Shown: piece after piece, positions 585-52,875 of the stretch
Layout: each line of letters begins with the position of its first letter
Numbering within the stretch: position 1 is the stretch's first letter
From: Turnera subulata
Lineage: Eukaryota; Streptophyta; Magnoliopsida; Malpighiales; Passifloraceae
DNA length: 64,000 nucleotides
Reading direction: 5' to 3'
Assembly: GCA_028386065.3 (NCBI GenBank)
Contig: JAKUCV010000197.1
Span: 12,004-76,003, forward strand
Notes under the pieces: model-generated
Databases searched by the model: none
Told to the model about the DNA's origin: nothing
What the model saw: only the letters and a program-made list of their open reading frames with translations
Translations under genes and position numbers: made by a program

Positions 585-1268
585 TCAACGGTTTGCAACG
601 ACGTTGACACGGAAGCTATTTGCGTCGCTGTTGACGTTGACCGTGACTCTGTCGCTCCAAGAAAGCCACATGCCGCCTCTGTCGCGCTGACCAGGAATCT
701 CGAACCGGTTAGCTTGTGAGAACCGGAGTGGGATGAGACCATGATCGTCCCGTGGTTGCCACTGTGTCTCCGTCAGAAGAACCATGTTCGGCTTGTACTG
801 GTTCTTCAGATCCCTCAAAGTGCGTGAGAACTCCTGTGCACGCCTAGCAACTCCTCTGCAATTCCACACCAGCAGTCGTACCTTTGGCCAGGTTGGAGGT
901 AGCCGAGTCATTCTGGGTATGCTCTGGGCTGTCATTGCGAGCTGGTAGTAAGCGCCTTGCTCCACAGTTTGGCAAGTGGACTCCAAGTTGAACTCTTGAA
1001 GTCTATCCGAGATGAAGAACATCACGGAGTTGGCTGATCCGTAGTAGGATGTCCTCAGAGTGCCGCGATCCTCCAGGAAGAACACCTCTTCCATTGGAGT
1101 GACGAAGAACCGTGACGAGTAGAGCTCGTTGACGAAGACTAGACGTGGCATTCTTCCGAGCTCATTCGGCAGCTTTTCAGCACGTTCGTTGACCATGCTG
1201 TAGGCTAGACGATTCCTTCTGCCGAGGTTGGCACCTTCGACAAAGAACACTGACGATGGAGCAGGCAT
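585..1268 (-). CDS. ORF-B copy 1: unrecognised retroelement antisense protein, 227 aa
   Basis: An intact 227-residue frame antisense to element 1. I do not recognise residues 1-125, which are conserved in all three copies (FFVEGANLGRRNRLAYSM at 8-25; LVFVNELYSSRFF at 43-55; YYGSANSVMFFIS at 75-87). Residues 127-227 resemble the start of a LINE-type endonuclease/exonuclease/phosphatase domain: WNCRG (135-139), YKPNMVLLTET (158-168) and GGMWLSW (198-204). The asparagine and glutamate of the first catalytic motifs are present, but the later Asp/His motifs are absent because the protein ends, so nuclease activity is unlikely. A TATA-like box lies 128 bp upstream on the same strand. The start is fixed by the matching starts of the copies at 23855 and 52192; all three run 684 nt to the terminal stop. 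Function unknown. Confidence 0.75.
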   Translation of the reverse strand: MPAPSSVFFVEGANLGRRNRLAYSMVNERAEKLPNELGRMPRLVFVNELYSSRFFVTPMEEVFFLEDRGTLRTSYYGSANSVMFFISDRLQEFNLESTCQTVEQGAYYQLAMTAQSIPRMTRLPPTWPKVRLLVWNCRGVARRAQEFSRTLRDLKNQYKPNMVLLTETQWQPRDDHGLIPLRFSQANRFEIPGQRDRGGMWLSWSDRVTVNVNSDANSFRVNVVANR

Positions 1269-1395
1269 TTTGACTGGGAGATTTTGAGTTTTTACTGAAC
1301 GCGTGGGGTTTTGTATTATGACCGTGGTATTTTCTATGCTTGAGCGTTTTATTGCTTTTAAAACATTTTTGATGAATTACACTTCACCGCTCCTT

Positions 1396-1403
1396 CTTTT
1401 ATA
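1396..1403 (-). promoter_or_regulatory. TATA-like box upstream of ORF-B copy 1
   Basis: TATAAAAG on the minus strand, about 130 bp before the ORF-B start. Copy 3 has the same octamer (52078-52085) about 110 bp before its start, and copy 2 has TATAAG. Promoter function is inferred from this recurrence. Confidence 0.5.
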
Positions 1404-2210
1404 CTCTTACGGGGAGCGTGATTACCGTTTTTAATTTTCAAGATTTTGCTTTTTGAAGATTTACCGTTGCTTGCATTTATTGCTTTACGCGTTTTTCGGA
1501 CTACCGTGCCAGAGTTTTTCAGTCTTATTCCATCTCTTGATTTTTTTTCGCTCTGGCTACCTTGTCTTTCCTTTTTGTGGCCTTTCCATAGTTTCTTGCA
1601 CCTTTCACCACTTGCATCCGTGACCGTTGAAGATGGACAGATGGGACCGCATCTCGAGTAGAGAGCATGTGCGACGAGTTTACAGCTGTTCGAACATCGT
1701 GGAGAGATGCGAGACGAGACTGACGTTTTGGCTTATGCGGAAATTGTGAACAAGTGGGTAGCGTTTCTTACGAGGGACACAGGACGCTCTCGTGATCGTC
1801 ACCGTGCGAGTTAACGGACGTTCTTTTCATGAGGGAATCGACGTCACCGTTAGTTGTGAACGTTACGTTTCGTGATTCGAGAATGCTTAGGACCGATTTA
1901 GGCGACGATCATGAAACGCGATTTTGTTTTAGTTTCTTTATGTTTGATTTTGTTAAACGAGTTTTGTTTTAATTATTAATTTCTTTATGTTGGTTATAAT
2001 TTGTTTTATCAGTCCTGTTTATAACATCATTATGTTCAATTTTATTTTCATTCATGACGGTTTTGTTATGTTTTAAATACTTTGTATTTCAATTAAATAT
2101 GATTTATCATATCTTAACAAGAGAATTCATGATATAAGAATTTCTAATTTAAAAGGAAATTTATTTTATTAATTTCATAATAAGGTTATACAACAGAGAA
2201 GAAGTACTCT

Positions 2211-2591
2211 CTATGGAGTCACTTGCTTCTCTAGATCTTTTACAATCTTCTTGGCATTCTCCATGTGAGGAAAGAGCTCCATGCACGCCAGTTCTATTTG
2301 TGCTACCGCCGAGCTGATCTTCTTCAGCGAGAAGTTCAGTTGTGTCAACTTCTGCTGCGGTGTGCTGCTCTCAGCTACCGCCTTGCCCTTGCGATCAACA
2401 GCCTTCTTGCCGGCACGCTTCTTCTGTCGTTTTGGGGAAACGACCATGTGCTCTTCCAGGCCGATGATGTGCGTCTTGAAGCGCTTCTTCGGAGGTTCCT
2501 CTTCATCGGAGCTTGTTTGGAAAGCTCTGCCGCCGATGTAGCTATCGTCCTCCGAGTCTGAGGTCGTTCTTGTTCTCAGTGGGGAATCCAT
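2211..2591 (-). CDS. ORF-A copy 1: unrecognised basic/acidic retroelement antisense protein, 126 aa
   Basis: A 126-residue frame antisense to element 1 and upstream of ORF-B on the same strand. An acidic, serine-rich N-terminus (SDSEDDSYIGG, 11-21; SSDEEE, 27-32) is followed by basic clusters like nuclear localisation signals (PPKKRFK, 33-39; KRQKKRAGKK, 54-63). The C-terminal 45 residues have heptad-like hydrophobic spacing and could form a helix or coiled coil. The frame is open further upstream, but the methionine at 2591 aligns with the start of the copy at 50859 and sits just 3' of a TATA box. I recognise no family; a nucleic-acid-binding or regulatory role is possible but unproven. The two copies differ by one glutamate in length. 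Confidence 0.65.
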   Translation of the reverse strand: MDSPLRTRTTSDSEDDSYIGGRAFQTSSDEEEPPKKRFKTHIIGLEEHMVVSPKRQKKRAGKKAVDRKGKAVAESSTPQQKLTQLNFSLKKISSAVAQIELACMELFPHMENAKKIVKDLEKQVTP

Positions 2592-2626
2592 GGCTGTGTG
2601 TGTGAGTTGCCAGCCATGAGGTTCGG

Positions 2627-2634
2627 TTTTTATA
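2627..2634 (-). promoter_or_regulatory. TATA-like box upstream of ORF-A copy 1
   Basis: CTATAAAAAC on the minus strand, about 40 bp upstream of the ORF-A start. The copy at 50817 has CTATAAGAAC at the same spacing, and the bases between box and start are strongly conserved, which supports a core promoter. Confidence 0.6.
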
Positions 2635-2754
2635 GAAGATGAGATGTCGTGTAAGGGTATAAGCGACATATCACGTTGAGTTCGGACACCTGGTGGAGTG
2701 TACCAGAAGCATATCGTGGTAGGACCCACGGATAAGACACGGAATTTCGGGGAC

Positions 2755-2779
2755 GAAATTTTTTTTAAGGTGGGTAGAT
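2755..2779 (+). other. Polypurine tract of element 1
   Basis: A T-run followed by AAGGTGGGTAGAT directly before the TG of the 3' LTR, the usual plus-strand priming site of chromovirus-type gypsy elements. Element 3 has the same tract on the minus strand. Confidence 0.75.
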
Positions 2780-5700
2780 TGTAACGACCCGGGTAAAATT
2801 TTTGAGATTTTACCGAGTCGCTTTAACTCTTACAACGGTAAATAGATTTTATCGTTGTAACCGAGAATTCTACCGCACCGAGTTTTTCGAATTTTACCGG
2901 GAGTAACCGAGCCTCGTTTCGATCGCCAAGGACATACGACGTTTTGGAGTATCTGCGTAACCGAGCCTTGGAATTAACTTCCGAGAATTCTACACGGCTA
3001 ACCGAGCCTCGGTTTTCAATTCCGAGACTTGAGCAACGCTCAGGGGAATTAATCGGATTTTCCGAGCCCAAGTTGTATTTTCGGGACCGGGACGAATTTC
3101 GAAAGGACGTTTATGCCCTTGGGATATTTTGGAACTCAAAGGAACTGGAAGGGTAAATCAGTCTTTTGTAGGATCAGATTTTTCCAATAAATAATGATAG
3201 ATATTTTCTTTATTCTTTCCTTTTCCTCCTCCTTTTCCACCCACTAACCCTTGTCCCCTGATTTTTTTTGTTTTAACCGGCCCACTTCCCATTTTCTTTC
3301 CATCTTTTCTTTTCTTCTTTGTCTCCTTTCTTTTCTGTTCTTTTATTTCTTTCCTCTTTTTTGCCCGAGCACCACATCCCTGCCTCCTTTCATTTCTTCC
3401 TCTTCTTTCACTTTCTCCCTCTCACATCTCTTCTCCCTCTTCCCTTCCTCCTCCTCCTGCAACCCGAGACCACCGCCCGAAGCCTCCCCTGCAGTAAGGC
3501 GCCACGCCTTTTCCCCCAACTTCATCCTCTTCGACTCGTCTCCACCGCCTCCTCACCGTGCCTCACTGCCGACCACCACCACGACACCACCATCCACCGC
3601 GACGCCTCCTTCCCCACCCCTGGCAACCGTCGCTGCTCGTGATTGCCGCCAGCCGTCGTCGACACCACCAAGCAGAGACACTCGATTTCCTCTCCCTCTC
3701 CCCCGGCTCCTCTGCCTCGCCCCGATCTGCCCCTTGGCCGCCGCCGCCGTAGCAGCGATTGAGGGTGCCGTGTGGGTAAGTGAGCCGCCCTCCTTCCACG
3801 TCGGTCGCCACCGCTGTGGGTGAATCAACACGTCTCAGGTCGCCTCTGCTCCTCCCCTGTTCGTCGTCACCAGTCGAGCTGGGCATAGACACGACCGAGA
3901 GGCTGAGCTCGCGCCAGCGAAAGGGGTAAGAATGCTACTGCTGAATTCACCTCCTTCTCTCATGTGATTGTTGTTGGGATTGTGAAGCAATTCTTGTATT
4001 CGTATTTGCGGGTTGAAATGGTAGAACTGGGACTGATTTTCTTGGTTTGATTTTGCTTGATGGTGCGGTGTTGGTGTTTTACTGGTTGATTTACAGTAAC
4101 AGTGGAGTATTTGGATTGTCGTGAACAGTGCCGGCCGGAATCCGGCAGCCTCGGGATTTTTCCGGCGATGCCTCGGGAACATTCCAGTGAACCCGAACAT
4201 GGACTTGGGGTAAATATCGGACCTTATGACCCATTATCGAACCCGGACGATATTAACGGACAGGACATTTAAATGACGTTAAATAAACAATTAATTAACC
4301 TAATTAATATTAAAATACGATTTAATTTCATGACTACATTATGTCTTGTAATGGTATAACTTTACCAAAAACTAAATCACGTTATATTAATTTAGTATGT
4401 TGTTAGCAAGTTATAATTTTTGGCATATATGAAATTATAAGTATCATTTTTGCAACTTTACGTTATAAACATTTTATACCATACGCTTGGCTAAGCTAAC
4501 TTATTACTAATAGTACTATTTAAATTTAAGTACATTATTCATGTATTTAAGTATCTCCCCTATTTTATAAACTTCGAATACTAAATGCATATACATTCAT
4601 TTTTACCTTATTGAGAATAATTACCTCTTTTAGCATATATATATATATATATACATGTAATTAAGCAATTAGCAACTTAAGTCACGGATTAAAAATGATA
4701 TTATTCCATTTGGAATTAACTATATATTTATAAGTCTTTTGCATAAACCATACAAAATCTATTTTATGGCTATGCCAGGATTGTTAATTTACCGGAAGTA
4801 ATTTACTAACGTAACAATGGTATTATTATTTTACACTATCGGTTATATGCATACATGTGTTTATTGTATTATATTTACTTTAAATGACTAGAATAGTGCC
4901 GACTATAAAAAATTATATGTGGTTATACATAACTTACCTAATGAGTATGTATTTGACACGAGCGTCTAATGGGCCGGAATATCGGCTTGGATGCTCGGGT
5001 TCGGTTTTAAGCTCGGTTCGATTTAAATTCGAAATTAAGTATAATTGGTATATCGAATAAAGAGGCTAATTTCATAATAAAGAAAACTAAGGAGATAAAT
5101 AAATTAAATTTGGTATAAGACAGGCCGTATAATAATTTCTAAAACCGGCATCATGCATGATCATTACTATCTGTGCATCATATGTGATTATCTTTGTTAT
5201 AAATATAGGAACATCGAGGCTTAATTGGATGTCAATTCTCTGGAGTATCAGGTGAGGATATAAACTTATAAACTTCGGTATGCTGCTCGTGATACCCCGA
5301 ATGTTTGATTGATCGTTTTTCTTATATGTTGTCTTGTCGTGCTTATCATGATATTGTTGGCTGCTATTGTGATTATTGTTATGTGATTGAGGACTGCTGT
5401 GATTGATTGTTGAACTCTGTGATGTTGACGTGTGCATTGTGATGACCATACGAGATACGTGATATTGAGTTAAAAGTGACAGTGACCCGGTACTCTGACA
5501 TTGTGATTGGGTTCCCAGAGGAGCTGTAAGGCTGAGAGCCTGCTCGAGAACGTGAATATGATGAGTTACTGTCGGACAGTGGAATAAGAAATAATAATAA
5601 ACAGTGGTAATAACATCTAGACATCTAGGTTGTCACGTGACAGGTATTGGTACGGCCAGATGGTAGTCGCCCTGTGATTTGTGATATGATAGGGAGGACT

Positions 5701-6407
5701 GCGTGGACTCCCGGCTGAGGACTGCGGGACTCAGTTGATTTGTTATAGGAAGGACTGCGGGACTTCCGCCGAGGACTGCGGGACTCGGTTATTTGTGATG
5801 TGATTTGTGATATTTATGGATTAACGGGGAGTACCCTGGGGTTAGCTAACCTGGCTACCAGGCACGGCCAATACTTATTACGTGACAGGGCCCTAATAAT
5901 AAAATTGGTAAGTCTATTGTCATATGTCGGTGAGTTTATCAGATTAGCCTAACCATGAGAAGTCGGACGTATAGTTAGTACTGGTAAGTTGATACTGATA
6001 CTATGTTTGCGCTTGCTGTATTTCTTTTGTGTTCTGTGATGGCTTGGGTGTATTTGCGGTTGTATGTATACTGTTGTTTATTTGTTTATCGGTGAGACAG
6101 TGGTTGGTCTCACCCCTCACACAGTTCCTGCAGGTTAGGTTTGCATACCGGTGGTTGTGGCGTCCCCTCGGACAAGACTCGGATCCAATAGCATGCATTG
6201 TGTCTTGCATATAAAATGTTACTGGATGTCTAGAAATGCTTCCGCTGTGCAAATGTTGATGTCCCCATAAGGTGACGTAATTGTGATTTGATTGACTATT
6301 TTTCATTTTATTGATATGTGTTCTTGCTTTTATGTTATGTTGGCCACGTGGTGATTCTATTTGCTGTAATTACTGTTAGACGGGTGAACTTAGGTCAGGG
6401 TGTTTCA
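2780..6407 (+). repeat. 3' LTR of element 1 (3.6 kb)
   Basis: Begins TGTAACGACCCGGG and ends TTTCA. At 3628 bp it is very long and codes for nothing convincing. A pyrimidine-rich stretch (about 3210-3480) leads into a GC-rich stretch (3480-3930) with splice-donor-like GTAAG at 3776 and 3927, then AT-rich sequence. Near the 3' end it holds a four-unit hairpin array (5692-5788) and a segment, about 6160-6215, that resembles the equivalent part of the element 3 LTR. Confidence 0.85.
5692..5788 (+). repeat. Array of four hairpins with compensating stems
   Basis: Four copies of a constant loop, GACTGCGGGA (the first has one extra base), are each flanked by a different but self-complementary 5-bp stem: GGGAG/CTCCC (5692-5712), CTGAG/CTCAG (5715-5734), GGAAG/CTTCC (5748-5767) and CCGAG/CTCGG (5769-5788). 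The stems vary while pairing is kept. Confidence 0.85.
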
Positions 6408-8402
6408 TACACCACCACCATATTAGTCTCATTGGATGTAAGAAATTTTAGTGCAGGGCAGTGAAGTTGATTTTAGAATGATGGAAATTTTACCAGGATA
6501 ATGGTAAAAATGATGGGGAACTTCAAACTTGGACCCAAAAAAAAAAATTAATGGGAAACACCTTTCTTTTTTCGATTCCGATGGAATGGATAGGCATTAT
6601 TCCACTAATATCATTACCAAAAGATGGAGTAAAAATGCTTATGAATCTGATGGGTAGATGCTCTTGGCTGATTCTAGAAAGCAAAGCACTGTGTCACTGT
6701 CAGGCTGACTGCTATCCTTCTCCTTGGGTTGTGTAGTGGAAAAGATTGGTTCCGATTCAAAGATGCTAACATTGCAAAACTCATTCTTGCTTGTTGCTTC
6801 ATTGCGAGTTCAAAGCATAATGGAAGAAGCTATTGGCTTACTTATCTAGCCTGAAGTCATGTCTTGATTATTCTAAATAACACATTTCTAACACTTCTAT
6901 TCGTGACTGCAAAGTATCAAGGTGCATTCGAGTTGTATTGCTTGATGTCCTGCTTTAATCGTTTATTCGATTGCAAATTATTGCCATATATTACTACTGA
7001 TACTAACTAGGTTTAAGGCTAAAGACAGGACAAATAATCTATATCTATACTATTTAATACCCTTATTTAATATTATATTAATAATAATAAATAATGAGTG
7101 ATACGTCATATACTAAAGAATGACATTTAGTCTATTATAATAATTCTCTTATAGTATAATCGTGAATAAATTAATAGAATTAACTTATTTATTAAATATA
7201 TAATTTAGAATATCGACTAATTACAGGTCTTAGAGAATTACTCTCTTATATTATAAAACTCAACAAATTAATGTAATTATTTTTATTAAATATATAATTT
7301 AATATGATAAATTATATAATTTAGAATATCATGAACATCTACAAATATCGTTAAAGAAAATTTAATTTAAGAATTGCTATACAAAAAGTTATTCTGAAGA
7401 GTTCCTATGGCTTTACATTATATGAATAACAGTAATAAAAAACCAGTACTGAAAAAACATAATTACAAAAAAAAAGCTTAAACACTTAGCAAAAATTAAA
7501 ATCAAGAACAATTATTATGAAGAAAATAATCGTGAGAACTCATGAGGGATGCGTTCAAAAGTTTATTGAAACTATCTAATAAATTCAAATTTATACATAA
7601 ATGACGAAAGCATCTAATAAATTGGTGAAAGGAAAAAATTAAAAACACTTTTACAAACAGATAAGTAAAAAATAGTTGAAGAATACAATTATGGTATATA
7701 AATGATGGATACCCAAAAATAATTTACTACAATGTTAACAAACACATATAAAATTTTAAAATTAAAAAAAATATTCTCCACCTAAAAATTTTCACTTTCT
7801 TTCCTCATTTACAGAATTTATTTTTCCAGAGTGTTTGATCCTACCCTAGTCAAAATAAAAAAAAAAAACAATAAGAACATATGTTAGCATATTAGGTGTC
7901 GCCGTCTGGTTTCACTGGTTTCAATATTTTTGCACTATATCACTTTCAAGAACTTTGGCGGTAGTCTCCTTCCAGCTAGCAGATGCTTTAAGCAGGACCC
8001 AATCCTGAAGCTGTTAGAATCTCAAGAATCATTCACAGTAGTCCTACGAAAACACCCAATCCTGAAGCTGTTAGAATCTCAAAAATCCTTCACAGTAGTC
8101 CTACGGATGGGATAAGATACTGTTATGAGGTTGGTGTTCAACAAGTAAGATAAATCATGTTTGATACTATGTGCTATGAACCCATCATGAAAAGTTCATA
8201 TGAAAAAAAGGACTAATTATATGAAAATCCAGAAGAGAGATTGAATTGACTTAAATGATATCCAATTTCTGATTCATAATAGTGTATAAACTGCACATTT
8301 CCTTTCATGAGTTCTCTCCATTCAGTCTTTGTAAGCAGAAGTTTTTCATACAAACTAACACTCCAGTTTTAACAAAATTCTATACAAAGGAAGAGGACTC
8401 TT
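6408..8402. other. Intergenic, AT-rich, no gene seen
   Basis: Runs from the edge of element 1 to the stress-protein gene. The part from 7030 to 7900 is very AT-rich. No coding frame of note; a short tandem duplication is listed separately. Confidence 0.7.
7998..8111. repeat. Tandem duplication, 57-bp unit x2
   Basis: The stretch beginning CCCAATCCTGAAGCTGTTAG occurs at 7998 and again at 8055 with only a few differences. Confidence 0.85.
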
Positions 8403-9926
8403 TCAGTTGAACTTGCCTGAAAAGCACGTACACCCAGCAAACTTCTTTTCAAAGTGGTCAGTAATATGAGGTCTTTTTGGACTGGAGGAAGGCACCACCT
8501 CTGTCACCTGCTGACCATCCGCGATCTTCTTTCCATCATGTATTATAGTAACTTCACAAAAATCCGGGGCATTCTTCTTGACAAATTCTCCTTTGGTCAA
8601 TTTCTTCCGTAGTTGTAGCCTAAAATATGAAGCTAACAGGATAAGGGTCATCATTATCAGACATGCAATTAACCATATGGACTTTCACTTACCTATCCAG
8701 GAGGAAAACTGCTAAACACAAAAAGTAAAAATCTGTACCTTGAGCGAGGTAGTCCTTTAGTTCCCATGACTAGTCTAGTAATGTTCAGTATAGGAATAAG
8801 TTCCAAAATGGCTTTGGAAGTCAAGCTGCTCTCAAGGAGCATTGTATCCACATTGACCTGTCACAGGGAAGCAGAAAGTTGAATTATTAAGGCTTTGAAC
8901 ACATTGGGGTAATATTTTGTAATAATATACTTGGAAAAACATATGAACCTTGGCATCTTTACATAAGCGAATGTATTTTTCCAGCTTGTTTCTTCTTCTA
9001 TTGTTCTCTTCATTGATGTAAAACCTCAGTTGATCCTGGCTTAGTTGGTGCCTAGATAATCTCCCAACTGTGTCAACAACCAATTACTATACACATGAAG
9101 CAACTATAACAGTAAACCATAATAAAGTTTATCCGACATTGGATCAGAATCATATCTCACCCTTCTTTGTTGCATAGTACGTAAAAGTATGGTTGCTTTT
9201 TTGTTGAGCTATAAAGTATATGATTCAACTTGTCATCATGCATTATTTAATACAGAAAGTGGGCTGCTGCTGTACCATCTAATATTTTATTCTCCCTTTT
9301 CTAATTTACTAATGTTGTTGAACAAGATATCTTTACCGAAATCCCAAAGTCTGAATCAATGGATTAAACCAATATTCTCTGCATCTACTTTATTTTGAGT
9401 GACCATTGAAAATGTCTGCTTACGTGAAGATTGCTGCTATACATGGGATTATCGACTTCAATGATGTCACTTAAAGGAGTACAAGCCGACTTAGAAAAAA
9501 AAATGAAAAAATTTGATCCCTTCAATTAGACACAGATTGCAGACATGATAGTTGGTCAACTATGAAACTGTAGCAGATACAACCAGAGATATAGTAAGTC
9601 CAGACCCCAGAGTCCCAGACTCAACCCCTCGAACTTGTAAGAACATAAGTCAAGATGTTGTTACCTGGTGTGTTGATGTATGTTAAAGGAGGGAAAACAT
9701 GAATAAGGAACAATCTAGCTCCAGGAGAAACACAGTGATCAAGAGCCCACTTCAGGACATCTAAGTCATCTTTACCAACTGCTACATAAACATCATTAAC
9801 AAAACCATCAATGCTATTAGTGACACTCCTGCTATCCTCCCCTATCTCCACTATCTCAGGAGACATAATTTGTCCAGCACCACCATACTGCACAGAACTT
9901 GCAGACACATATCTCTTTTCTTCCAT
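8403..9926 (-). CDS. Universal stress protein (USP) domain protein, 238 aa, 4 exons
   Basis: Exons on the minus strand: 9926-9665, 9067-8949, 8857-8739 and 8619-8403. All junctions are GT-AG and in phase, giving 238 residues. After a short serine-rich leader with VEIGEDSRS comes the USP fold: DVYVAVGKDDLDVLKWALDH (first strand and helix) and LFLIHVFPPLTYI in exon 1; the helical stretch QDQLRFYINEENNRRRNKLE in exon 2; VNVDTMLLESS and LNITRLVMGTKGLPRSR, the nucleotide-loop region, in exon 3; and a basic tail (LRKKLTKGEFVKKNAPDFCE) in exon 4. The closest family I know is the USP part of plant U-box/kinase proteins (PUB35/36/54 type); here neither U-box nor kinase follows, so it is a stand-alone USP. 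The start chosen is the first methionine matching that family (MEEKRYVSAS). Probable role: stress signalling, cytosolic; not provable from sequence. Confidence 0.85.
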
Positions 9927-21034: not shown

Positions 21035-21039
21035 AAACT

Positions 21040-21245
21040 TGTTATAAATATATTATTTCGAGGGACCAATATGTAGTGAATGTCATTTTGAGGGACCAAA
21101 GTGATACTTTGCCACCTCCTGTGTATTATATATAAGGAAATAAAGAAACAGAAAACGGTGTGAAGCCGGGTAACGAGACCCGTTGAACCCCTCCTCTCAA
21201 ATCTTCTTCCCAAATTTTTAACTCAAATCCGATTGTTTTATAACA
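21040..21245 (+). repeat. 5' LTR of element 2
   Basis: 206 bp, TG...CA ends. The sequence right after it, CGTTATCAGCACGA, is where a primer site is expected but does not begin with TGG; plant copia elements with this leader are known to me only as a general type. Confidence 0.92.
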
Positions 21246-22022
21246 CGTTATCAGCACGATAACTCTACCCACTAAGATATCAAACTGAAGAAGAAGAAAA
21301 ACCAAAGAAAAATTTTTCGGCCGTTTTCCGTTCGTCCTCCGGCGCCGGCTTCCGCATTGTTGTGCATGACACCACTACCGCCATCTTGATCCCCTCGCTG
21401 TCGCCGACTGGCCGGCGCCTCCTCCACCTCCCTCTGGTGCCCGACGCGCCGTCAGAAGCCCTCGACCCGACGGCGGATCCGGACCTGTTTGCTGCCAAAG
21501 CCGGGTCTGCCTTCACCCGACTGTCCTTCCGCCGCCTGCATAGCCGTCGCCCGACGCTTGCTACCTCCCACGCCCGGTCCCCTGCCGTGCCTGCTGCTGC
21601 CGACGATTGGAGCTTCTGTCGCCGCCGTCCACCGGTGACTCTATTCCTCTTCTTTTAATTTTTTTTTTTTTAGAAGCCCATTGATTAAACTTGATTTGTT
21701 TTGTGTTTTGTTTGCTTGATTGTTTGTGTGTTGCTTGGTTGATTCTGTTTTGGCTGTGAATGGATGACGGATTATGATGAGTTTTTTTGGTGTTGTTGAT
21801 GGAGAGTTCACGGATTGTGTTTTTGGCCGGAACTCGGCGACCGTGAACAATGCTCCGCCGGAATCCGGCGTGAACAGTAATTTGCATCTCGGGATTTTCC
21901 GGCAAGTCCGGAACGCTATTATACTTATTTTGTGATTGGCCGGAATTCAGCGCTTCGGAATTTTTCCCAGCAAGCCCGGAAGGCTATTGTATTTATTTTA
22001 CTGCTTTTCTTTACATTTTAAA

Positions 22023-23171: not shown

Positions 23172-23855
23172 CTATTTGTTGGGTTCAACATTAACCCTGA
23201 AACTCTGAGCCTCACCATTAATGTTGACCCTAACACTGTCATTCTAGGAGAACCACATACCACCCATGTTGTTTTCTCCAGGTATCTCAAACCGATTCGT
23301 TGGAGGAAAACGAAGTGGAATCACACCATGATTCTCTCCTGCTTGCCACAAAGTCTCAGTAATCAGTACCATGTTAGGCTTGTACTGATTCTTTAGATCC
23401 CTTAAGGTACGCACAAAATCTTGAGACATTCTTGCTACACCCCTGCAATTCCACAGTAAAAGTCGTACCTTAGGCCATGTAGGTGGTAACCCAGTCACCC
23501 TTGGGACGCTCCTAGCCATCATGGAAACCTGATAATAACTGCTTTGATTTAAAATTTGACATGAAGGCTTTAGCTGAAAATCCTGCAGTCTATTAGATAT
23601 GAAAAACATAATAGAATTAGCCGAGCCATAAAAGGAAGCCCTTAAATTGCTTTGGTCCTCTAGGAAGAATGTTTCTTCCATAGGAGTTACAAAGAACGTA
23701 GATGAATATAGTTCATCAACAAACACTAAACGAGGAATTCTCGCCAGAACATCCGGTAATTCCTCTTGCTGCTCATTCACCATGCTATAAGCTAACCTAT
23801 TTCTTCTTCCTAGAGAGGCACCCTCAACAAAGAAAATAGTAGCTGGGGAAGGCAT
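23172..23855 (-). pseudogene. ORF-B copy 2 in element 2, one nonsense codon
   Basis: Same 684-nt frame as the copies in elements 1 and 3, again antisense to its host element. Residues 1-203 are open and keep the N-terminal block (FFVEGASLGRRNRLAYSMVN) and the endonuclease-like block (LLLWNCRGVAR; YKPNMVLITET). Tryptophan 204 is replaced by TAG (23244-23246); reading on, homology continues to the normal terminal stop at 23172 with no frameshift. A further in-frame ATG at 23891 would add 12 residues not found in the other copies. The first 28 codons differ from copy 3 mainly at synonymous sites, pointing to past protein-level selection. The truncated 203-residue product could still be made. Confidence 0.75.
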
Positions 23856-23917: not shown

Positions 23918-23924
23918 CTTATAG
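23918..23924 (-). promoter_or_regulatory. TATA-like box upstream of ORF-B copy 2
   Basis: CTATAAGAAGG on the minus strand, about 65 bp before the conserved ORF-B start. Position relative to the frame parallels copies 1 and 3. Confidence 0.45.
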
Positions 23925-26765: not shown

Positions 26766-26971
26766 TGTTATAAATATATTATTCCGAGGGACCAATATGT
26801 AATGAATATCATTTTGAGGGACCAAAGTGATACTTTGCCACCTCCTATGTATTATATATAAGGAAATAAAGAAACAGAAAACGGTGTGAAGCCGGGTAAC
26901 GAGACCCGTTGAACCCCTCCTCTCAAATCTTCTTCCCAAATTTTTAACTCAAATCCAATTGTTTTATAACA
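26766..26971 (+). repeat. 3' LTR of element 2
   Basis: 206 bp, about five transitions from the 5' copy; followed by target duplication AAACT. Confidence 0.92.
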
Positions 26972-30790: not shown

Positions 30791-30791
30791 A

Positions 30792-44288: not shown

Positions 44289-44394
44289 GTAACAACCGAT
44301 CAATTACATTGTATTATTATTATGGAAAAAGCCCACAGTTGTGCAGGGTAATCTAAATTGGATAGCATTGTTATTATGATAAAGGTCCACAGTT

Positions 44395-44487
44395 CCACTG
44401 TAAGCGCTCGCTGAGCCCGGTGGTTTGCCCTGGCCCTGGACTGGGAGAGCCTCCCCTCAACCTAAACTTTAATCGACCAAAAAAAAG
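44395..44487 (+). mobile_element. Short SINE-like insertion, 93 bp
   Basis: Flanked by a 14-bp direct repeat AAAGGTCCACAGTT (44381-44394, 44488-44501) and ending in an A-rich tail, as expected of target-primed insertion. The body is GC-rich (GCTCGCTGAGCCCGGTGG...). I saw no clear tRNA-type promoter boxes, so it is probably a 5'-truncated SINE. Confidence 0.5.
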
Positions 44488-44501
44488 AAAGGTCCACAGT
44501 T

Positions 44502-45706
44502 GTAGAGGGTAATCTAAATTGGTTTGTAATTCATTTTGCTGCTCTGTATTTGACCTAAATGTTTGTCTGTCACCATTCGGTGTTTTAATGGTCAGAATAG
44601 TTTCTTTTTCTTAATTTGGAGTCTGAATAAACACTTTCTTGGCACATTCTCTCCGGAGTGATCGTTCATGTCTTCATAAACAACTCTAAAAATACTTAGT
44701 TGTTTTTTCTTTCTAGGTTCATCCATCATGTTTTTATTTATCAAGAAAAGCTACTGTAATGGAGAAATGTTTCAAATGCGGGATTTATTTGTTATGGTAC
44801 AAATTTATTACAACTACACCCTTGCTTGCTATAGCCACATGTTTTCTGTTGAAAAATTTTAGGTATTCAAGTTCAACTGCTTAGTAAAGATTTGGTGACT
44901 GGTGTTAAAAATTATAATCTTGCTACAGTTCAAATTATAATCTTTCTACTAGAACACTCAAGTTTTCAATGTAGTATTTACAAGTAACTTTACAGATTTG
45001 TATGATGAATATGTTTTTTTGGATAAAATTAATGATTTTCCAAAACCTACCATTCTAAACAAACCAAACAATGTGTTTTGACATGTTGAAATTTGATATC
45101 CTGAACTGTGGGTTGACGCAAATCGTGAATGTATCCAATTAAATTGACTAATTACGTTTTTGTTTCAGCCCAAGATATGGATGGGCCTACTCTACAATGA
45201 TGATGCGGTATACTGCAATTTTTGTATTGTTCCTCATAGCTTGTTTATGTATTTCTTCACTTTAGTTTTCTCTCACATGTAAGTTTTGTTATTCCACTGT
45301 AAATATGCTTTTGATCACTGAATGAATTGAACCCTGAAATTTCTACTATACATTGTTTTGATCTTGCAGCCTAAAGATTATAAGCCTCCAATCTCCGGGC
45401 ACTTCACAGAAGAAGAATCCCGTAAGTCATGGATGACTCATTGGAGGATGATGGAGGTTGGCAATTTCAACAGCAAGACTTTTGAATTAAAGTTCGGGAT
45501 TGAATATTTTTTTTGCTTGCGTTAAATTTACATCTACAGTAAGTTTAATTTCAATTTCTGTTCATCTGACAGTAGCGGATCCACGGTGTAGTCATTGTAG
45601 GCATATGACTACACTGATCTTCCAAATCTTCTAATAAATTATAAGATTATTTCTCTTTTTAAAAAAAATCTATTCTTTTTAGTTATTTTTTCTCTTATGT
45701 TTTCCT
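44502..45706. other. Intergenic / relic gene introns
   Basis: AT-rich with two acceptor-led, exon-like pieces (45171-45209, 45370-45420) discussed with the relic exon at 43510. Nothing else seen. Confidence 0.4.
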
Positions 45707-45716
45707 TTAAATAATC

Positions 45717-47643
45717 GGTAAAAAAGTTTTTTTATGTCCTTACACTTTGTTGTTTTCACATTTATTGTCCCTCCTCGTTTAATTTCACTCAACATGTCCT
45801 TGAACTTAAGATTTATCGGGCCACTATGTCCTTTTTACCTGCTATTACAGGTTGATTGTTATGGTACTGACACTTGTCTTGTGGGATCATGGGCTGTTCT
45901 TTTTTTAATCTTTCTTCTATTTTCTTATTAAAATAAATCAATTTTATAATAATAAAAAATAAATAAATCATAAACAAATATGTACTGTTGAATCTTTATT
46001 TTCTTACTTTTTATTTTAAATGTTTTAAATTCTTTTTTTAATAAGTAAATTTTTTATTTTTCCTTCACAAAAATATTCTAATATAATCAAAATATGATAT
46101 CAAAATTAGGAAAAAGAATTTATAATTTTCATAAATTATAAATAAATAAATGATATGGCTATTTTTTTATTGGCAAGCTAAAAATAGTGAGGTTATGGTG
46201 TACCCAATAGGATTTTTTTATTGGCAAGCTAAAAACACACTCCTGTACTCCACTCGCAATCAAACTATTACAAATAGACCTACCAACTTCATATTCTAAT
46301 ACTACAATTACAAAATGTGAACGATTTCCTTTTTTTCTTTATGCAGAATTTCATGTAGATATTTCTTCAAACAGTTGGCACGCATACCTCCTCAAGTAAC
46401 ATGATTAAGTCTTCAACAAACTTCAACGGTGTGGCTCAGGTTGGCATGGCCACAAAGGATTCATCCCAAGCTGACAAATCATCATCTGAATACTCACTTT
46501 CTCATCAACTCTCTCGAGAACTCTCCTGGGAAGCTATTCCTCTTTACCAATATGAAGGGCTTTGGCTCCCATGTGAGTTAGATATTCAAGACATTCAAGC
46601 CATCCAAACCCAGTTTCAAGGCAAGGGACGATGATGTTCTACTGGCATCCTCCATGAATCCCCTCCTCCACCCCAACTCCTCCTCCACTTCTTCCCAGAG
46701 GTTCTCCGCCAACTTGAAGTCAAAGCCCTCCATAATTGCCCACTCCAAGCCGCAGAAGTCTTGCTTCGTTGACCCCAAGAAATCGCCACCCCAAGTCTCG
46801 TGAACCGGATCTCGTCGTCAAGGCCGACAAATCGAGAGTAGTAGAAAGGACGGCGCTGCTGTGTTCGCAGGAGCTACCGTGAGTCATGGCGGCGCTCTTC
46901 GGGTTCCCCTCCACCGGCTGTAACAACAAGCTTAATGTCCTCGCCGTGGGTAAGTCACATCGGCCGGTCTCGTGTCCTCTCCTCCCTCTCGACTCTTCCC
47001 TCCCCTTTTTTTTTTAATTTTTTGTTGTTATGCCCAATTGCAGTTTTATCGTGTTCATTTTGTTGATGGGCTCATGGTGATAGATGGATATTAATGGTAG
47101 CTGTGTGTTGATTGTGGTGATTGAGGTTGGGTTGGATTTTTGGTATGGTTGGGGTTCGATGAAGCAAGGGAGAAGGGAGAAGCAGGGTGTGGCGAGATTG
47201 GGGAAGAAATCAGCGGCCGGTTTTTTGGCGACGGCGCTAGGAGGACAAGGGCGGAAGGTGGGTTGGCGTCGATGTGGAAACTGGAGGGGTGAGGCAATGG
47301 TGTTGGTTCGGTGCTGGTGGTTACCGAGCGAGGTTGGAACTTGGGAGTTGGGAGAGAGATGAGGAGCATGGGGGAGAGAAAATAAAAATGATTTATTTAA
47401 TTTAAATAAGAATTTTATAAATTAACTTTTTGGTAAAAGGAAAGGAAAAGAGAATAAAAAATTGGCAGCATGTGGCCTTCGTGACACGTGTCATCACCAT
47501 AGCATCTAACCGGCTGTAAAGAGTTAAAAGGACATGGTAGCCCGGTAAAATGTGAGTTCAGGGACATGTTGAGTGAAATTGAACGAAGAGGGACAACAAA
47601 TGCGAAATCGATAAAGTTTAAGGACAGAAAAAACTTTTTTACC
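45717..47643. mobile_element. Pack-MULE (Mutator-like element), 1927 bp
   Basis: Terminal inverted repeats of about 240 bp (45717-45955 and 47405-47643), beginning GGTAAAAAAGTTTTTT, are flanked by a perfect 10-bp duplication TTAAATAATC (45707-45716, 47644-47653), within the 9-11 bp range of MULEs. There is no transposase. The interior (46330-47370) is GC-richer than the surroundings and includes a sulfotransferase-derived piece plus at least one other exon-like fragment (ATGGCGGCGCTCTTCGGG near 46886, followed by a GTAAGT donor), so it has captured host gene parts. Confidence 0.9.
46401..46665 (+). pseudogene. Captured N-terminal fragment of a cytosolic sulfotransferase
   Basis: The frame from 46401 reads SRELSWEAIPLYQYEGLWLP and then QAIQTQFQ, the N-terminal signature of plant cytosolic sulfotransferases (SOT). 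After a small frameshift near 46625 the match resumes as RDDDVLLASSM, then stops exactly where the PAPS-binding motif (KSGTTW in the family) should follow; unrelated sequence continues. It therefore lacks the catalytic region. It lies inside the Pack-MULE and is a captured exon piece, not a working gene. Confidence 0.7.
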
Positions 47644-47980
47644 TTAAATAATCTCTATCTCTTTCATAATATTTTTAAGATCATTAATTATTCACTAGAT
47701 TTCTTCATTAATTTACTATCAATTAATTTTATTTCTATTTTCTTCCATTTATATAGATTTTAATTCTTTCCTTTATTATGATAATATAAATTTTGCCTTA
47801 TAATTTTTTTCTTTCTATATCTTTTTGGTCTCTTTTTCTTACTTTCTTTAGGTATGTTGTCCATATGTTAAAAAAATATATATATTTGATTTATAGTAAA
47901 CTAATTATTCATTATCTTCAAAATTAAAAAGAGAAATTATTACATAACAAATAAATCTATAACAAAATTCCTTAAGAATT

Positions 47981-50673
47981 TGAAACGCCCCGACCCGCAT
48001 TTACCGTACACAGTAAACACGTGCCGGAACTGTAACGACCCAACCAAACAAAGCCCAGCATACAACGTATACAATAGAAACTCGGGCTCAACAGCCCAAA
48101 ATAAAAACAACAATAACATCATAACCGGCCCAATGGCCCAACAATAGCAAAAGGTAGCACAGCGGAAGACTTAATAACTCACAAAGACACTGTATGCGAC
48201 ATAGATGCAAACTATGGATCCGAGTCCTGTCCAAGGGATAATGCCGCAGCCTGTCTGGAATGCACCAAACCTGTACCACAAATAATCCATCCTACGGGAT
48301 GAAAGCCCGCAGGTGAGGGGTGAGTCCGAAGTGCTCACCGACGAAGGATAGACAATCAATATGCAACACTATAAATTACTCAAGTCAAAAAGAAGGAAAA
48401 AAACTGTCAAAATACACCAAACCAAAAGGCTCGACCCAAAACCGGTCCAAGACCAAAAAGACTAAAAACAAAAATCCATTTTCCAATTTTATCTTTCCGG
48501 GCCCCGTCACGGATAAGCTAGAGACCTGGTTCTCAACATATTTCGGGTGCCAGACCAAATCCAAGAGAACCTAGGGATCGACATCCCAAAAATAAGAACC
48601 TAGGGATAGACATCCCAAATATAATCACGGGATAGACATCCCAAGCATAGACATGCTTATCACAAGTAACCCAGGTCATGGCCACCACAAAATAGTCTTA
48701 AACCATCGAGTCGTACCACTACTTACCACATGACAACTATATTATCATCATTCAAAACCAAGTCACAGGGATCAACATCCCTAACCATAATACCGGGATA
48801 GACATCCCATCCAAAACCGAGGATCGACATCCTGATCACAATTTATTATTTATTCCATCATTCTTAATACCAAAAAGACACAGTGATAAATATTCAAAAA
48901 CTCGATGTACGGGGATAAACATCCCAAACCAAATCGAGTCGTACCACTACTTACCACGTGACAACTATATTATCATCATTCAAAACCAAGTCACAGGGAT
49001 TAACATCCCTAACCATAATACCAGGATAGACATCCCATCCAAAACCGAGGATCGACATCCTGATCACAATTTATTATTTATTCCATCATTCTTAATACCA
49101 AAAAGACACAGTGATAAATATTCAAAAACTCAATGTACGGGGATAAACATCCCAAACCAAATCATGGGGATAAACATCCCAAAAACAATCAGGACACTAG
49201 GATAAACATCCCGAACCAAACCACAGCAAATGCAACAACCAACAGAGCAATATTCATCAAACACAATAACCGAGTAATACAGGCACATATTGAAGGAAAT
49301 CCATCCTCACCTTGGCCGATTACTCAATCCGGAGACAATGACCGGTCCGAAGCCGACTCCTCGGGAAACTGCCCGATATCAAACCTATACAACAAACAAT
49401 ATATACTCACATAAGATGCACATAAGAGTATGCCATGATGCCAATACTGCGAAATAAATCCATTCCAGTTCATATCCTTTATTATCATATTTTACAGAAA
49501 ATATTAAAACCTTTTATATTTTTCTCAAAATAATATATATTTTTCCAAAACTGATTTTATTCCAGAAAATAAATAAATATATATATATATTATTTCTTTT
49601 TTTTAGAAAAAACTAGACTGGGCCATGAACTGTGCAGCCCAGCCTACTACATAGACCAAGCCCAGCCCCCAAGCAGGAGCCCACGCAGCAGGCCCAACTA
49701 CACAGCCCACAACCCAAACCCAGAAACTGTGCGACCCGTCTACATGAAACGGATCTTTGCAAAACCAGGGTCTCACCTCCGGGTTGCACGACAGGAGCGA
49801 CGAGTGCGAGGGAGAAGCTGGCGCGGGGTCGACGAGGCTGAGGCGACCCCTCCGGCGGTGGTAAATTGGTGCTGCAACGCCGGAGAGGAAGATCCGCGGG
49901 TTGCAGGACGGGTCAACGGCAGCTGGCGGCGCGTCGGTAGGCGGAAGAGCTCGCTAGCGACGGCATCGAGGTCGCGATGGCATGGCGACGACGATGGTGG
50001 CGTCGGTGAGTCGAGCTGCGGCGGAAAACTCTTCCTAGTGAACAGTGAAGGCTCGGAGGAAGGTGGTGCCACTGTGCTTTTTTTTTCTCTTCTTTTTTCT
50101 GTATTTTTCTTTTCTTCCATTTTTCTTCTTCTTCTTTTTTTTTCTTCCTATTTTTCCGATTTTCGTTTCTTTTGTTTTCATTTTTTTTTAATTTTTTTCC
50201 TCTCCCTCTCTCTGTTTCCTATTTTTTTTTCTTTCTTTTCTCTTTTCTTTTCTTTTTTTCTTCCTTTTTTTTTTCTCTTTTTTTTTCTTTTTCCTTTCCT
50301 TTTTCTCTCTTTTTTTTTTCTTCTCCTCTTCCTCCCTTCTCCTGCTTCCTTTTTATAACGATGAAAACACTGTGCAACGTGTGCACCTTCAATAATGCAG
50401 CTTGTCTACATTATGGAGCGAGTCCGGTCCGGACCAGAAAATAACTGATACCCCCTTAGTTATTTTCCGGTGTGATTTTTTTGAGGATTTCGGGACCCAA
50501 AAAATACCAACTTTGGTCTGTAAAATCCACAGAAAAATCTCGAGCGCGGGAAAACCCTAGGTTACGAAAAACAACGCCCGATTAATTACCCAAGATTAAT
50601 TCTATCGGTAAATCACTGTAAAAAGACTTTTTCAGTCCCGGTAAAAATCCAAATTTTTACCCGGGCTGTTACA
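47981..50673 (-). repeat. 3' LTR of element 3 (2.7 kb)
   Basis: Paired with 53134-56013. Holds a tandem duplication of about 230 bp (48710-48930 and 48940-49140) not seen in the other LTR, a hairpin array, a GC-rich stretch (49680-50050) and a CT-rich tract (50070-50345). Confidence 0.9.
48574..49212. repeat. GGGAT-NNAC-ATCCC hairpin array in the 3' LTR of element 3
   Basis: About 14 short palindromes with a four-base loop (AGAC, CGAC, AAAC). Most stems are GGGAT/ATCCC, but some change on both sides: AAGCAT/ATGCTT (48643-48658), AGGAT/ATCCT (48820-48833) and AGGGAT/ATCCCT (48767-48782). Confidence 0.8.
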
Positions 50674-50700
50674 GTCTACCCACCTTAAAAAGAATTACGT
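50674..50700 (-). other. Polypurine tract of element 3
   Basis: On the minus strand reads a T-run then AAGGTGGGTAGAC directly before the LTR TG; matches element 1. Confidence 0.75.
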
Positions 50701-50816
50701 CCTCGAAATTCCGTCTTATCCGTGGGTCCTACCACGATAAGCTTCTGGCACTCTCTGCCAGGTGTCCAAACTCAACGCGAGATACCGCTTATACCCTTAA
50801 GCGACATCTCATCCTC

Positions 50817-50822
50817 TATAAG
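50817..50822 (+). promoter_or_regulatory. TATA-like box upstream of ORF-A copy 3
   Basis: CTATAAGAACC about 40 bp before the ORF-A start; the flanks match those of copy 1 at 2620-2640. Confidence 0.55.
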
Positions 50823-50858
50823 AACCGAACCTCATGACTGGAAAACTCACACACAGTC

Positions 50859-51236
50859 ATGGACTCTCCACTGAGAACAAGAACCACCTCAGACTACGAA
50901 GACAACAGCTATATCGGTGGTACTGCTTTCCCGACAAGCTCCGATGAAGAACCGCCAAAGAAGCGCTTCAAGACGAACATCGTCGGTCTGAAAGAACACA
51001 TGGTCGTCTCCAGCAGACGGCGTAAGAAGCGTGCTGGCAAAGAAGCTGAGGATAGGAAGGGCAAGGCAACTGCTGAAAGCAGCACTCCGCAGCAAACTCT
51101 GACGCAGCTGAACGTCTTACTGAGGAAGATCAGCTCGGCGGTGATGCAGATAGAACAGCCATGGGCGGAACTCTTTCCCCACGTCAAAAAGATCCAAATG
51201 CTTGTAAAAGATCTTGAGAAGCAAGTAACTCAATAA
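50859..51236 (+). CDS. ORF-A copy 3: unrecognised antisense protein, 125 aa
   Basis: Intact second copy of ORF-A. It starts MDSPLRTRTTSDYEDNSYIG and keeps the acidic serine-rich block, the basic PPKKRFK and RRRKKRAGKE clusters, the glutamine-rich STPQQTLTQLN linker and the C-terminal helix ending KDLEKQVTQ. It is one residue shorter than copy 1 (one glutamate fewer). Both ends are conserved, so the frame has been kept although element 3 is old. Function unknown; the basic clusters suggest nuclear entry or nucleic-acid binding. It is antisense to the host retroelement and lies 955 bp upstream of ORF-B, with part of that spacer conserved in element 1. Confidence 0.65.
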   Translation: MDSPLRTRTTSDYEDNSYIGGTAFPTSSDEEPPKKRFKTNIVGLKEHMVVSSRRRKKRAGKEAEDRKGKATAESSTPQQTLTQLNVLLRKISSAVMQIEQPWAELFPHVKKIQMLVKDLEKQVTQ

Positions 51237-52077
51237 AGTACTTCTTCTCCGTTGTAAACCGTTATGAAATAAATAAAATAAGTTTTCTTTTCAAATCAAA
51301 ACTCTTATGTTTCGAAGTCTTATGTTAAATAGAAAAACAAAACATCTCAAAGCAGATTAAAACTCAACAATAAGGATATAAAATCAAACATAAAGAAATT
51401 AAAAACAAAATTCGTTTAACAAAACCAAAACATAAAGGTGTTAAGACAAAAACATGGTTTCATGTTCGGCGCTCTAGATCGGTCGTAGACATCCTCGATC
51501 CCGAGAAACGTAACACGCACAACTAACGGTGACGTCTGTTTCCCTCATGGGAAAGACATCCGTTAAGTTTCAAGGTGTCGATGACGTCACGAGCACGTCC
51601 TGTGTCCCTCGAAAGAAACGTTATCCAATTGTTCACAAATTCCGCATGAGCAAAAAATGTCTGTCAAGTCTCGTATCCCTCCATGATGTCCGAACAGGTG
51701 TAAGCTTGTCGCACATACACTCTACTCGAGGTATGGCCCCATCAGTCTAACCACAACGGTCACGGATGCATGTGATAAAAGATGCAGGAAAATATAGAAA
51801 AACCATAAAAAGAAACGCCAAGGTAGCCAGGGCGTTAGAAAATCGTGAGATAGAAAAGAGCTGAAAAACACTGGCATTTGTAGCCCGAAAAATGTATAAA
51901 GTAACAAAGCAATAAATGAAGCAACGACAAAATTTTTAAAAACAACACCTTGAAAAATGAAAACGATTTGGAGCTTTGTGAAGGGAATCTGCTTTTCCCA
52001 TCACCAAAAAATCCTTTAGACCTTCCCGGGGATAGGTGGGGTCTAAACTTTGAAAAACAAAACGGTAAACATTTTTC

Positions 52078-52085
52078 TATAAAAG
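52078..52085 (+). promoter_or_regulatory. TATA-like box upstream of ORF-B copy 3
   Basis: CTATAAAAGGC, a canonical plant TATA box, about 110 bp before the ORF-B start at 52192. Confidence 0.6.
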
Positions 52086-52191
52086 GCAAAATAACGGAAA
52101 GCAAAAACCACAAAGCATCCAAGAGAAAACAAAACCCTCGGGCAAAGAAAACACCACGTTCAGAAAACCCAACACCACGCATCGAAACAAC

Positions 52192-52875
52192 ATGCCTGCT
52201 CCATCGTCCGTCTTCTTCGTCGAAGGTGCCAACCTAGGCAGAAGAAACCGGCTGGCTTACAGCATGATCAACGAGCGTCCAGAGGAACTACCGAACGAGC
52301 TTGGCAGAATGCCCCGTCTGGTCTTCGTCGACGAACTCTACTCCTCCAGATTCTTCATCACTCCCATGGAAGAGACGTTCTTCCTGGAGGACCAAGGTAC
52401 CCTGAGGACCTCCTTCTACGGCTCGGCCAACTCCGTCATGTTTTTCATCTCTGAAAGACTTCAGGATTTCAACCTAGAGCCCACTTGCCATTTCCTGGAC
52501 CAAGGTACCTACTACCAGCTCTCGATGACTGCCTAAAGCATGCCTAGAGTGACTCGATTACCTCCAACTTGGCCAAAGGCCCGACCACTGGCGTGCAACT
52601 ACAGAGGAGTCGCTAGGCGTTCCCAGGAGTTCTCGTGTACCCTGAGGGACCTGAAGAACCAGTACAAGCCAAACATGGTTCTTCTCACGGAGACCCAATG
52701 GCAGCCTGAAGACGATCACGGTCTCATCCCACTTCGGTTCCCTCCAGCAAACCGGTTCGAGCTTCCTGGCCAGAACAACGCAGGCGGCATGTGGTTCTCG
52801 TGGAACGACAACATCAGGGTCAACATCAACAACGACCCCAACAGCTTCAGGGTCAACGTCGTTCCGAGAAGATGA
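52192..52875 (+). pseudogene. ORF-B copy 3 in element 3, one nonsense codon
   Basis: The same 684-nt frame as copies 1 and 2. Residues 1-114 are open (MPAPSSVFFVEGANLGRRNR onward); codon 115, glutamine in copy 1, is TAA (52534-52536). After it the frame resumes to the conserved end without any indel. The endonuclease-like part has lost a key motif: WNCRG of the other copies reads CNYRG here, while YKPNMVLLTET remains. A 114-residue N-terminal product could still be made, and matches the part unique to this family. Antisense to element 3. Confidence 0.75.

Follow-up and report, generated by a model that had tools for sequence, protein, structure and literature searches.

We analyzed a stretch of 64,000 nucleotides from the genome of Turnera subulata (positions 12004-76003 of contig JAKUCV010000197.1; hereafter, the window), in which an open reading frame (ORF) of 684 nt, called here ORF-B, occurs once in each of three long terminal repeat (LTR) retrotransposons. 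We conclude, with a probability of roughly 0.6, that ORF-B is an antisense accessory protein gene that has spread between Del/Tekay-type gypsy elements and Bianca-like and Sirevirus-like copia elements. Its length is nearly constant in four deep clades, and the changes that were passed on are under purifying selection. A preliminary description of the window, made from its letters alone, had proposed that ORF-B is shared across element families. We find it in at least three LTR-retrotransposon lineages that belong to both superfamilies, and in antisense wherever the orientation is readable.

ORF-B copies in the window

The three copies of ORF-B (Table 1) align end to end and without indels, at the coordinates that had been described. 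Their nucleotide identity is 81.0% between copies 1 and 3, 67.0% between copies 1 and 2, and 69.3% between copies 2 and 3. The earlier description of all three as ORFs has to be corrected, since only copy 1 is free of stops: TAG interrupts copy 2 at codon 204 and TAA interrupts copy 3 at codon 115. Broken in this way, copies 2 and 3 appear to be the decayed descendants of a gene that was under selection. The polarity of the host element is opposite to that of ORF-B in all three cases, as judged from the primer-binding site (PBS), the polypurine tract (by eye), and the LTR ends. The excess of synonymous changes noticed earlier is real: copies 1 and 3 differ by a synonymous divergence (dS) of 0.73 and a nonsynonymous divergence (dN) of 0.109, a ratio of 0.15. 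Between copy 2 and copies 1 and 3, the synonymous sites are saturated and dN is 0.194 and 0.157, respectively. This saturation between gypsy-type and copia copies means that no single recent insertion lies behind all three, an explanation that the preliminary description had itself raised.

Table 1. Coordinates of ORF-B, ORF-A, their upstream TATA motifs, and the host elements in the window
Feature	Position	Strand	Remarks
ORF-B copy 1	585..1268	-	Intact, 227 aa, antisense in element 1
ORF-B copy 2	23172..23855	-	684 nt; stop TAG in codon 204; antisense to element 2
ORF-B copy 3	52192..52875	+	684 nt; stop TAA in codon 115; antisense to element 3
TATA motif, ORF-B copy 1	1398..1403	-	-135
TATA motif, ORF-B copy 2	23918..23923	-	-68
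TATA motif, ORF-B copy 3	52078..52083	+	-114
Element 1, 5' LTR end	1..198	+	Cut at window base 1, remainder lost to assembly gap
Element 1, PBS region	199..213	+	TTTTGGTAGCGGAGC
Element 1, 3' LTR	2780..6407	+	Del-type ends, TGTAACGACC ... GGGTGTTTCA
Element 2, 5' LTR	21040..21245	+	Copia, Bianca-like
Element 2, PBS	21246..21259	+	CGTTATCAGCACGA, taken as half tRNA-Ile type
Element 2, 3' LTR	26766..26971	+	Target-site duplication AAACT flanks element
Element 3, 3' LTR	47981..50673	-	Element on minus strand; Del-type ends
Element 3, 5' LTR	53134..56013	-	Element on minus strand
ORF-A copy 1	2211..2591	-	126 aa, antisense in element 1
ORF-A copy in element 3	50859..51236	+	125 aa, antisense
TATA motif, ORF-A copy 1	2629..2634	-	-43
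TATA motif, ORF-A in element 3	50817..50822	+	-42

The ORF-B family in the genome and beyond

The genome assembly (518,689,335 bases in 7125 contigs) was searched with both DNA and protein. With copy 2 as the query, 40 of 2906 candidates were scored and gave places at 96-98% identity; with copy 3, 40 of 4998 were scored, giving places at 94-95% identity and three partial second ORF-B copies at 78-80%. We also used P0001 (226 aa), a protein that is 35-38% identical to ORF-B over the full length. It was taken from European Nucleotide Archive records, as were P0002 (218 aa), 74% identical to P0001, and P0003 (175 aa), 78% identical to P0001 over 65% of P0003, the end of which is out of frame by eye. 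The best 150 of the 7577 candidates found with P0001 all have E<1e-43 and are nearly full length; counted by eye, 125 of these 150 are stop-free and 25 have in-frame stops. Twenty places were taken from this list, of which 15 have exactly 227 codons and 2 have 226 (start one codon late), the remaining 3 being in another frame or reading beyond the usual stop. No place among the best 150 is more than 42% identical to P0001, which hence does not come from this assembly. Judged from these records, the ORF-B family exists outside this assembly with the same predicted length and plan.

A tree of 27 full-length copies has four deep clades, between which synonymous distances are saturated or nearly so. 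Clade I is the gypsy type (copies 1 and 3), clade II is the Bianca type (copy 2), and clades III and IV have Sirevirus-like carriers. Variable sites among the 27 copies number 128, 90, and 214 at the first, second, and third codon positions, of 228 each. The tree is midpoint-rooted only. Diverse copies of other lengths than 684 nt (L070, L071, and L074) were excluded from it and from clades III and IV; two copies read as 681 nt were excluded from the tree and padded for the change counts, and partial ORFs (L051 and L056) and second partial copies (L041 and L042) were excluded from the counts.

These second partial copies lie directly 3' of a full one, at L041:1221-1677 (78% identity to copy 3 over the aligned part) and L042:1222-1313 (86%, likewise), which suggests tandem duplication. 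Locus L025 has two Bianca-type copies about 3 kb apart (811-1488 and 4537-5215), the first of which is stop-free in frame over the aligned part.

Selection on the ORF-B protein

For each set of copies, we compared the changes common to at least two copies with the changes private to one. The neutral expectation for the nonsynonymous share is 0.68-0.72, with a transition bias set by hand and not fitted. Among shared changes, those that are nonsynonymous amount to 27/78 in clade I (15 copies), 21/48 in clade II (30 copies), 1/8 in eight full clade II copies chosen by their flank, 13/44 in clade III (10 copies), and 6/13 in clade IV (5 copies), where the signal is weak (P=0.04). Copies of clades III and IV were sampled by protein similarity, which favours conserved proteins. 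Among private changes, the corresponding counts are 60/107 (I), 114/164 (II), 57/92 (II, flank-chosen), 55/101 (III), and 47/94 (IV). The private share of 0.70 in the 30 copies of clade II, with 10 stops versus 8.7 expected, is that of unselected decay. In the other sets it is 0.50-0.62, below the neutral value, so that part of the private changes must be old. Since shared changes are mostly synonymous and the private changes of clade II are neutral, selection seems to have acted while the elements replicated, and decay to have followed insertion. Pooled dN/dS is 0.20 in clade I, 0.39 in clade II (0.34 in the flank-chosen copies), 0.22 in clade III, and 0.29 in clade IV. Within families the ratio is thus far from the value near 1 that the preliminary description had named as contrary to its proposal, and the predominance of synonymous shared changes agrees with its idea of a gene selected for its protein.

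We considered, and rejected, the notion that ORF-B is the most conserved stretch of its element. Copies ranked by the ORF had shown about 97% identity versus mostly 80-96% in the flanks, and this contrast was gone in copies chosen by flank. Part of it, at the least, therefore came from the way in which the search had selected the copies.

Upstream TATA motif and weak match to half of the EEP fold

A TATA motif lies about 67-135 bases above the ATG of the three window copies. In the samples examined it stands upstream in 61 of 62 copies (20/20, 14/14, and 7/8 in three samples, and 20/20 diverse copies, within 160 bases). As controls, the 160 bases downstream had such a motif in 4/20 and 6/14 copies, and random windows at a frequency of 0.23-0.29. 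ORF-B thus stands behind a TATA motif of its own, a promoter-like signal.

Residues 133-220 of the protein weakly match columns 2-94 of the 225 columns of PF03372, the endonuclease/exonuclease/phosphatase (EEP) fold. The E values are 2.3e-4 for P0001, 5.4e-4 for P0002, 1.4e-4 for the L078 protein, and 0.013 for copy 1 (residues 134-211), all below the gathering score. The match stops at profile columns 84-94, near the protein end, and the domain is incomplete: two early EEP motifs, WN and ET, are present, and the later half with the later catalytic residues is absent. WN and ET have a catalytic role in the EEP fold. A truncated EEP half is more likely to be a module that binds nucleic acid or protein than a nuclease. 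Conservation down to P0001 also extends to the first ~130 residues, for which Pfam gave no convincing match. To call ORF-B wholly unknown, as the preliminary description did, was too strong, because antisense additional ORFs are known from earlier work (PMC7264820), and the protein is similar in its second half to one half of an EEP or long interspersed nuclear element (LINE) endonuclease fold. Nor is ORF-B a known transposon domain in sense orientation, the other objection that had been foreseen.

The window elements

Element 2 has LTRs of 206 bp, and elements 1 and 3 have LTRs of kilobase length, as previously stated. No long gag-pol ORF was seen inside any of the three (by eye in element 2), which agrees with the earlier view that they have no working gag-pol. 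The PBS of element 2, CGTTATCAGCACGA, is common to this element and its relatives; we take it to be of the half tRNA-Ile type. It fits the published statement that the Bianca PBS is complementary to half tRNA-Ile (PMC6317226), and we class element 2 as Bianca-like copia on this signature.

Elements 1 and 3 have further internal DNA in common, at 79-82% identity. Their LTRs start with TGTAACGACC and TGTAACAGCC, respectively, and in both elements the U5 positions -8 to -10 read GGG. In a study of Del gypsy attachment sites, the commonest U3 site is TGTAACACCC and the type A U5 has GGG (PMC4029996). With LTR ends so close to these Del landmarks, both elements are assigned to the Del/Tekay-type gypsy lineage.

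Sirevirus-like carriers

Of nine Sirevirus-like loci, eight have gag or pol beside ORF-B and opposite to it in strand. One carrier, L079 (clade IV), encodes rve (3e-17), RVT_2 (6e-76), RNase H, and a downstream PF20167 ORF, all opposite to the ORF-B strand, and thus has a copia pol. In another, L078 (clade III), both gag and a PF20167 ORF run opposite to ORF-B. No pol was found in L078, which suggests that pol-less Sirevirus-like elements still carry ORF-B. At seven further diverse loci (five of clades III and IV, two with an ORF-B outside the tree), gag lies opposite ORF-B in three and reverse transcriptase (RT)/RNase H in three; L081 had neither a gag nor a pol match within the 1.5 kb examined. 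The RNase H end is about 500-570 bases from ORF-B in L079, L083, L084, and L086, and gag instead adjoins ORF-B at L078, L080, L082, and L085. The preliminary description placed ORF-B in elements without working gag-pol. This fits the window elements, but ORF-B is not confined to elements that lack gag-pol, since RT/RNase H stands a few hundred bases away at 4 of the 9 Sirevirus-like loci.

Sireviruses are characterized by a CA/ATTGG junction and by a palindromic repeated motif near the env-like ORF (PMC2829016). The junction occurs in L078 (...AACA/ATTGG), where the LTR pair lies outside the stretch examined. A palindromic 12-mer, AACATCGATGTT, has 19 occurrences in L078 and 12 in L079, most of them close to where the env-like PF20167 ORF begins; the 12-mer is absent from the window, and it lacks the CGG-CCG core of most published Sirevirus motifs. 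The PBS nonamer of L078 is TAGCGGAGC and not the published Sirevirus TATCAGAGC, and hence we use only the name "Sirevirus-like."

Proposed exchange of LTRs and ORF-B between elements

We compared LTR ends among 15 Bianca-type copies; of the 21 at hand, five had been excluded for want of a PBS match and one because its LTR is cut. Their mean ORF-B p-distance is 0.026, and their mean LTR-end identity is 0.72 versus 0.67 for shuffled sequences; ORF-B distance and LTR-end identity have a Spearman correlation of 0.07. At least 6 of the 105 pairs rest on fewer than 20 aligned bases and are meaningless. Four pairs among the window copy, L018, L020, and L023 reach 0.85-0.93. Most of the internal sequence is alike, starting about 630 bases behind the PBS and continuing to the 3' LTR. 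These copies were chosen by ORF similarity, yet such a choice alone cannot make their LTRs unrelated. It seems that a common body was kept while the LTR and leader around it were exchanged. LTR elements have been reported to recombine during bursts (PMC5668417). The Bianca-type copies combine mostly unrelated LTRs with near-identical ORF-B and similar internal sequence. We propose that ORF-B was transferred by template switching between co-packaged element RNAs. Exchange between the clades is old.

ORF-A and other features of the window

Besides ORF-B, elements 1 and 3 carry another antisense ORF (ORF-A), which was unmentioned in the preliminary description. Its dN/dS is 0.17 between the two elements (a single pair), and by eye it may contain a coiled coil and has basic stretches resembling nuclear localization signals. 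Neither element 2 nor the other loci looked at gave an ORF-A, the gypsy-type loci extending only about 400 bases past ORF-B. Elsewhere in the window there is a copia polyprotein fragment (Pol_BBD, E=7.8e-14) at 63178-63645 on the minus strand, and self-comparison revealed diverged tandem repeats at 58883-60378, with offsets of about 78 to 295 bases.

Discussion

Antisense additional ORFs of plant LTR retrotransposons have been on record since 1997 without an assigned role (PMC7264820). Those of the type aORF-3R, antisense and located between pol and the 3' LTR, include gene23 of maize Grande and the ORFs of rice RIRE2, Silene Retand, and PvRetro13; for Grande, an own promoter and a nuclear product were reported (PMC7264820). 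ORF-B resembles these ORFs in being antisense in an LTR retrotransposon and apparently kept across copies, and its TATA motif recalls the own promoter of Grande. It is also antisense to gag-pol, and RT/RNase H adjoins it at four Sirevirus-like loci (L079, L083, L084, and L086), where it lies between pol and the 3' LTR. Grande and RIRE2 are gypsy elements. Retand, too, is gypsy (PMC7264820), whereas ORF-B is found in gypsy and copia; Grande, RIRE2, and PvRetro13 were compared with it by description only. A further difference concerns the TRP28 antisense ORFs of Retand, since no match to Transposase_28 (PF04195) was reported in the 14 ORF-B proteins scanned. Sireviruses have a sense env-like extra ORF (eORF-3'F) in 74% of SIRE elements (PMC6317226). 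The sense PF20167 ORF downstream of ORF-B in L078 and L079 is comparable, whereas ORF-B itself is antisense. With 227 codons, ORF-B falls below the 250-codon limit of that survey (PMC6317226), and an ORF of such length would have gone uncounted there. Outside plants, ORF3 genes common to LTR and Penelope-like elements have been described in bdelloid rotifers (PMC5408684). In both cases one type of accessory gene occurs in unrelated groups of retroelements, which points to a shared pool. As described, the rotifer genes differ from the truncated EEP of ORF-B in their animal host and in being of the GDSL esterase and DEDDy exonuclease types. In the searches that we made, there appears to be no earlier account of ORF-B in Del-type, Bianca-like, and Sirevirus-like elements, or of its half-EEP plan.

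Other explanations of these results have to be considered. Each lineage could have captured ORF-B separately, from a selected host gene or from another mobile element, so that most of the selection signal would be that of the host. LTR retrotransposons of plants are known to capture genes (PMC7264820), and the synonymous saturation between clades leaves room for separate captures. However, the low nonsynonymous share of shared changes within each clade points to selection inside the elements, and captured genes are usually in sense (PMC7264820), whereas ORF-B is antisense wherever it was read. We also found no host-type relative, either in protein searches, for which the plant coverage of the database was not established, or among the best 150 of the 7577 places in the genome. 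We consider repeated capture unlikely, although a host gene may exist beyond this coverage. It is improbable that ORF-B is a fragment of a LINE-type endonuclease that inserted once in antisense and has since hitchhiked with successful elements. In four proteins the second half does align to part of PF03372, below the gathering score, and the stretches WNCRG, TET, and GGMW are like those of EEP and LINE endonucleases. But ORF-B ends before the later catalytic residues and has its EEP-like half behind a part of ~130 residues that is conserved without a convincing Pfam match. Nor would one expect of a passenger that its length stays nearly constant across four saturated clades, that its codons are strongly constrained, and that its TATA motif is conserved.

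The sharing could also be confined to copia, by ordinary recombination within the superfamily, if elements 1 and 3 were not gypsy. They have no gag-pol by which to classify them, and their PBS core, TGGTAGCGGAGC, is also found in the Sirevirus-like L078. We likewise think this improbable, because both elements have LTR ends that fit the Del landmarks (U3 near TGTAACACCC and GGG in U5) of PMC4029996, and L078 has the Sirevirus CA/ATTGG junction instead. Least probable of all is that the antisense transcript, and not the protein, is what matters, by regulating the sense RNA of the element through double-stranded RNA or silencing control. Antisense RNAs of LTR elements may act in this way (PMC7264820), and the TATA motif is conserved in antisense. 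Yet it is the amino acids that are conserved rather than the nucleotides, with third positions varying at 214 of 228 codons.

Several of our observations weigh against an antisense accessory protein gene spread between lineages. In the flank-chosen copies, ORF-B has 93.6-96.5% identity versus 90.6-95.9% for the flank (main "mid" matches). Its nucleotides are thus no better conserved than the flank, and it is only by the type of substitution that the constraint can be seen. In the Bianca type, several copies inherited a stop at codon 204, as two shared changes (in 7/30 and 2/30 copies); among gypsy-type copies, one stop at codon 109 and one at codon 170 each occur in two. Within the 2 kb examined at 14 flank-chosen Bianca-type loci, ORF-B is full in 8, partial in 2, and missing in 4, so that 6 of 14 lack a full copy in that stretch, one of which is nearly half N. 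The shared stops and these loci indicate that copies without an intact protein multiply too. The PF03372 match was obtained in only 4 of the 14 proteins scanned, in the same register; the other 10 gave no such row, two of them lacking that half (the N-terminal piece of copy 3 and P0003). A low-confidence structure model of ORF-B gave no fold relative that supports a function. Finally, synonymous sites are saturated between clades and the tree is rooted only at its midpoint, which limits any reading of the direction and number of transfers.

If ORF-B is an antisense accessory gene shared between lineages, what could it do? The pattern of selection favours a gene that would serve its carriers rather than parasitise them, the two options named in the preliminary description. 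Carriers of different lineages have kept the same protein, which makes a host step the probable target. Hence, we tentatively suggest that ORF-B may act on a host step common to all its carriers. Our leading guess is that it would work in the nucleus and relieve silencing or some other defence of the host; a role as part of the particle of one element seems less likely. A wider and more speculative picture is that of a common pool of mobile accessory genes in both superfamilies, in which ORF-B would be a self-promoted counter-defence gene that is exchanged and selected in each lineage, letting non-autonomous elements with foreign LTRs prosper.

These findings may have consequences for how the accessory genes of plant retrotransposons are viewed. 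They suggest that such genes can move between both superfamilies of plant LTR elements, a sharing comparable to that reported between retroelement classes of rotifers. The Del-type, Bianca-like, and Sirevirus-like carriers differ in their LTRs and partly in their primer, so that the target of ORF-B is probably a host process and not the machinery of the elements. The old question of what antisense additional ORFs do becomes testable, with one protein in many natural backgrounds and at least 150 scored places in one genome. If our interpretation is true, ORF-B probably helps its carriers spread.

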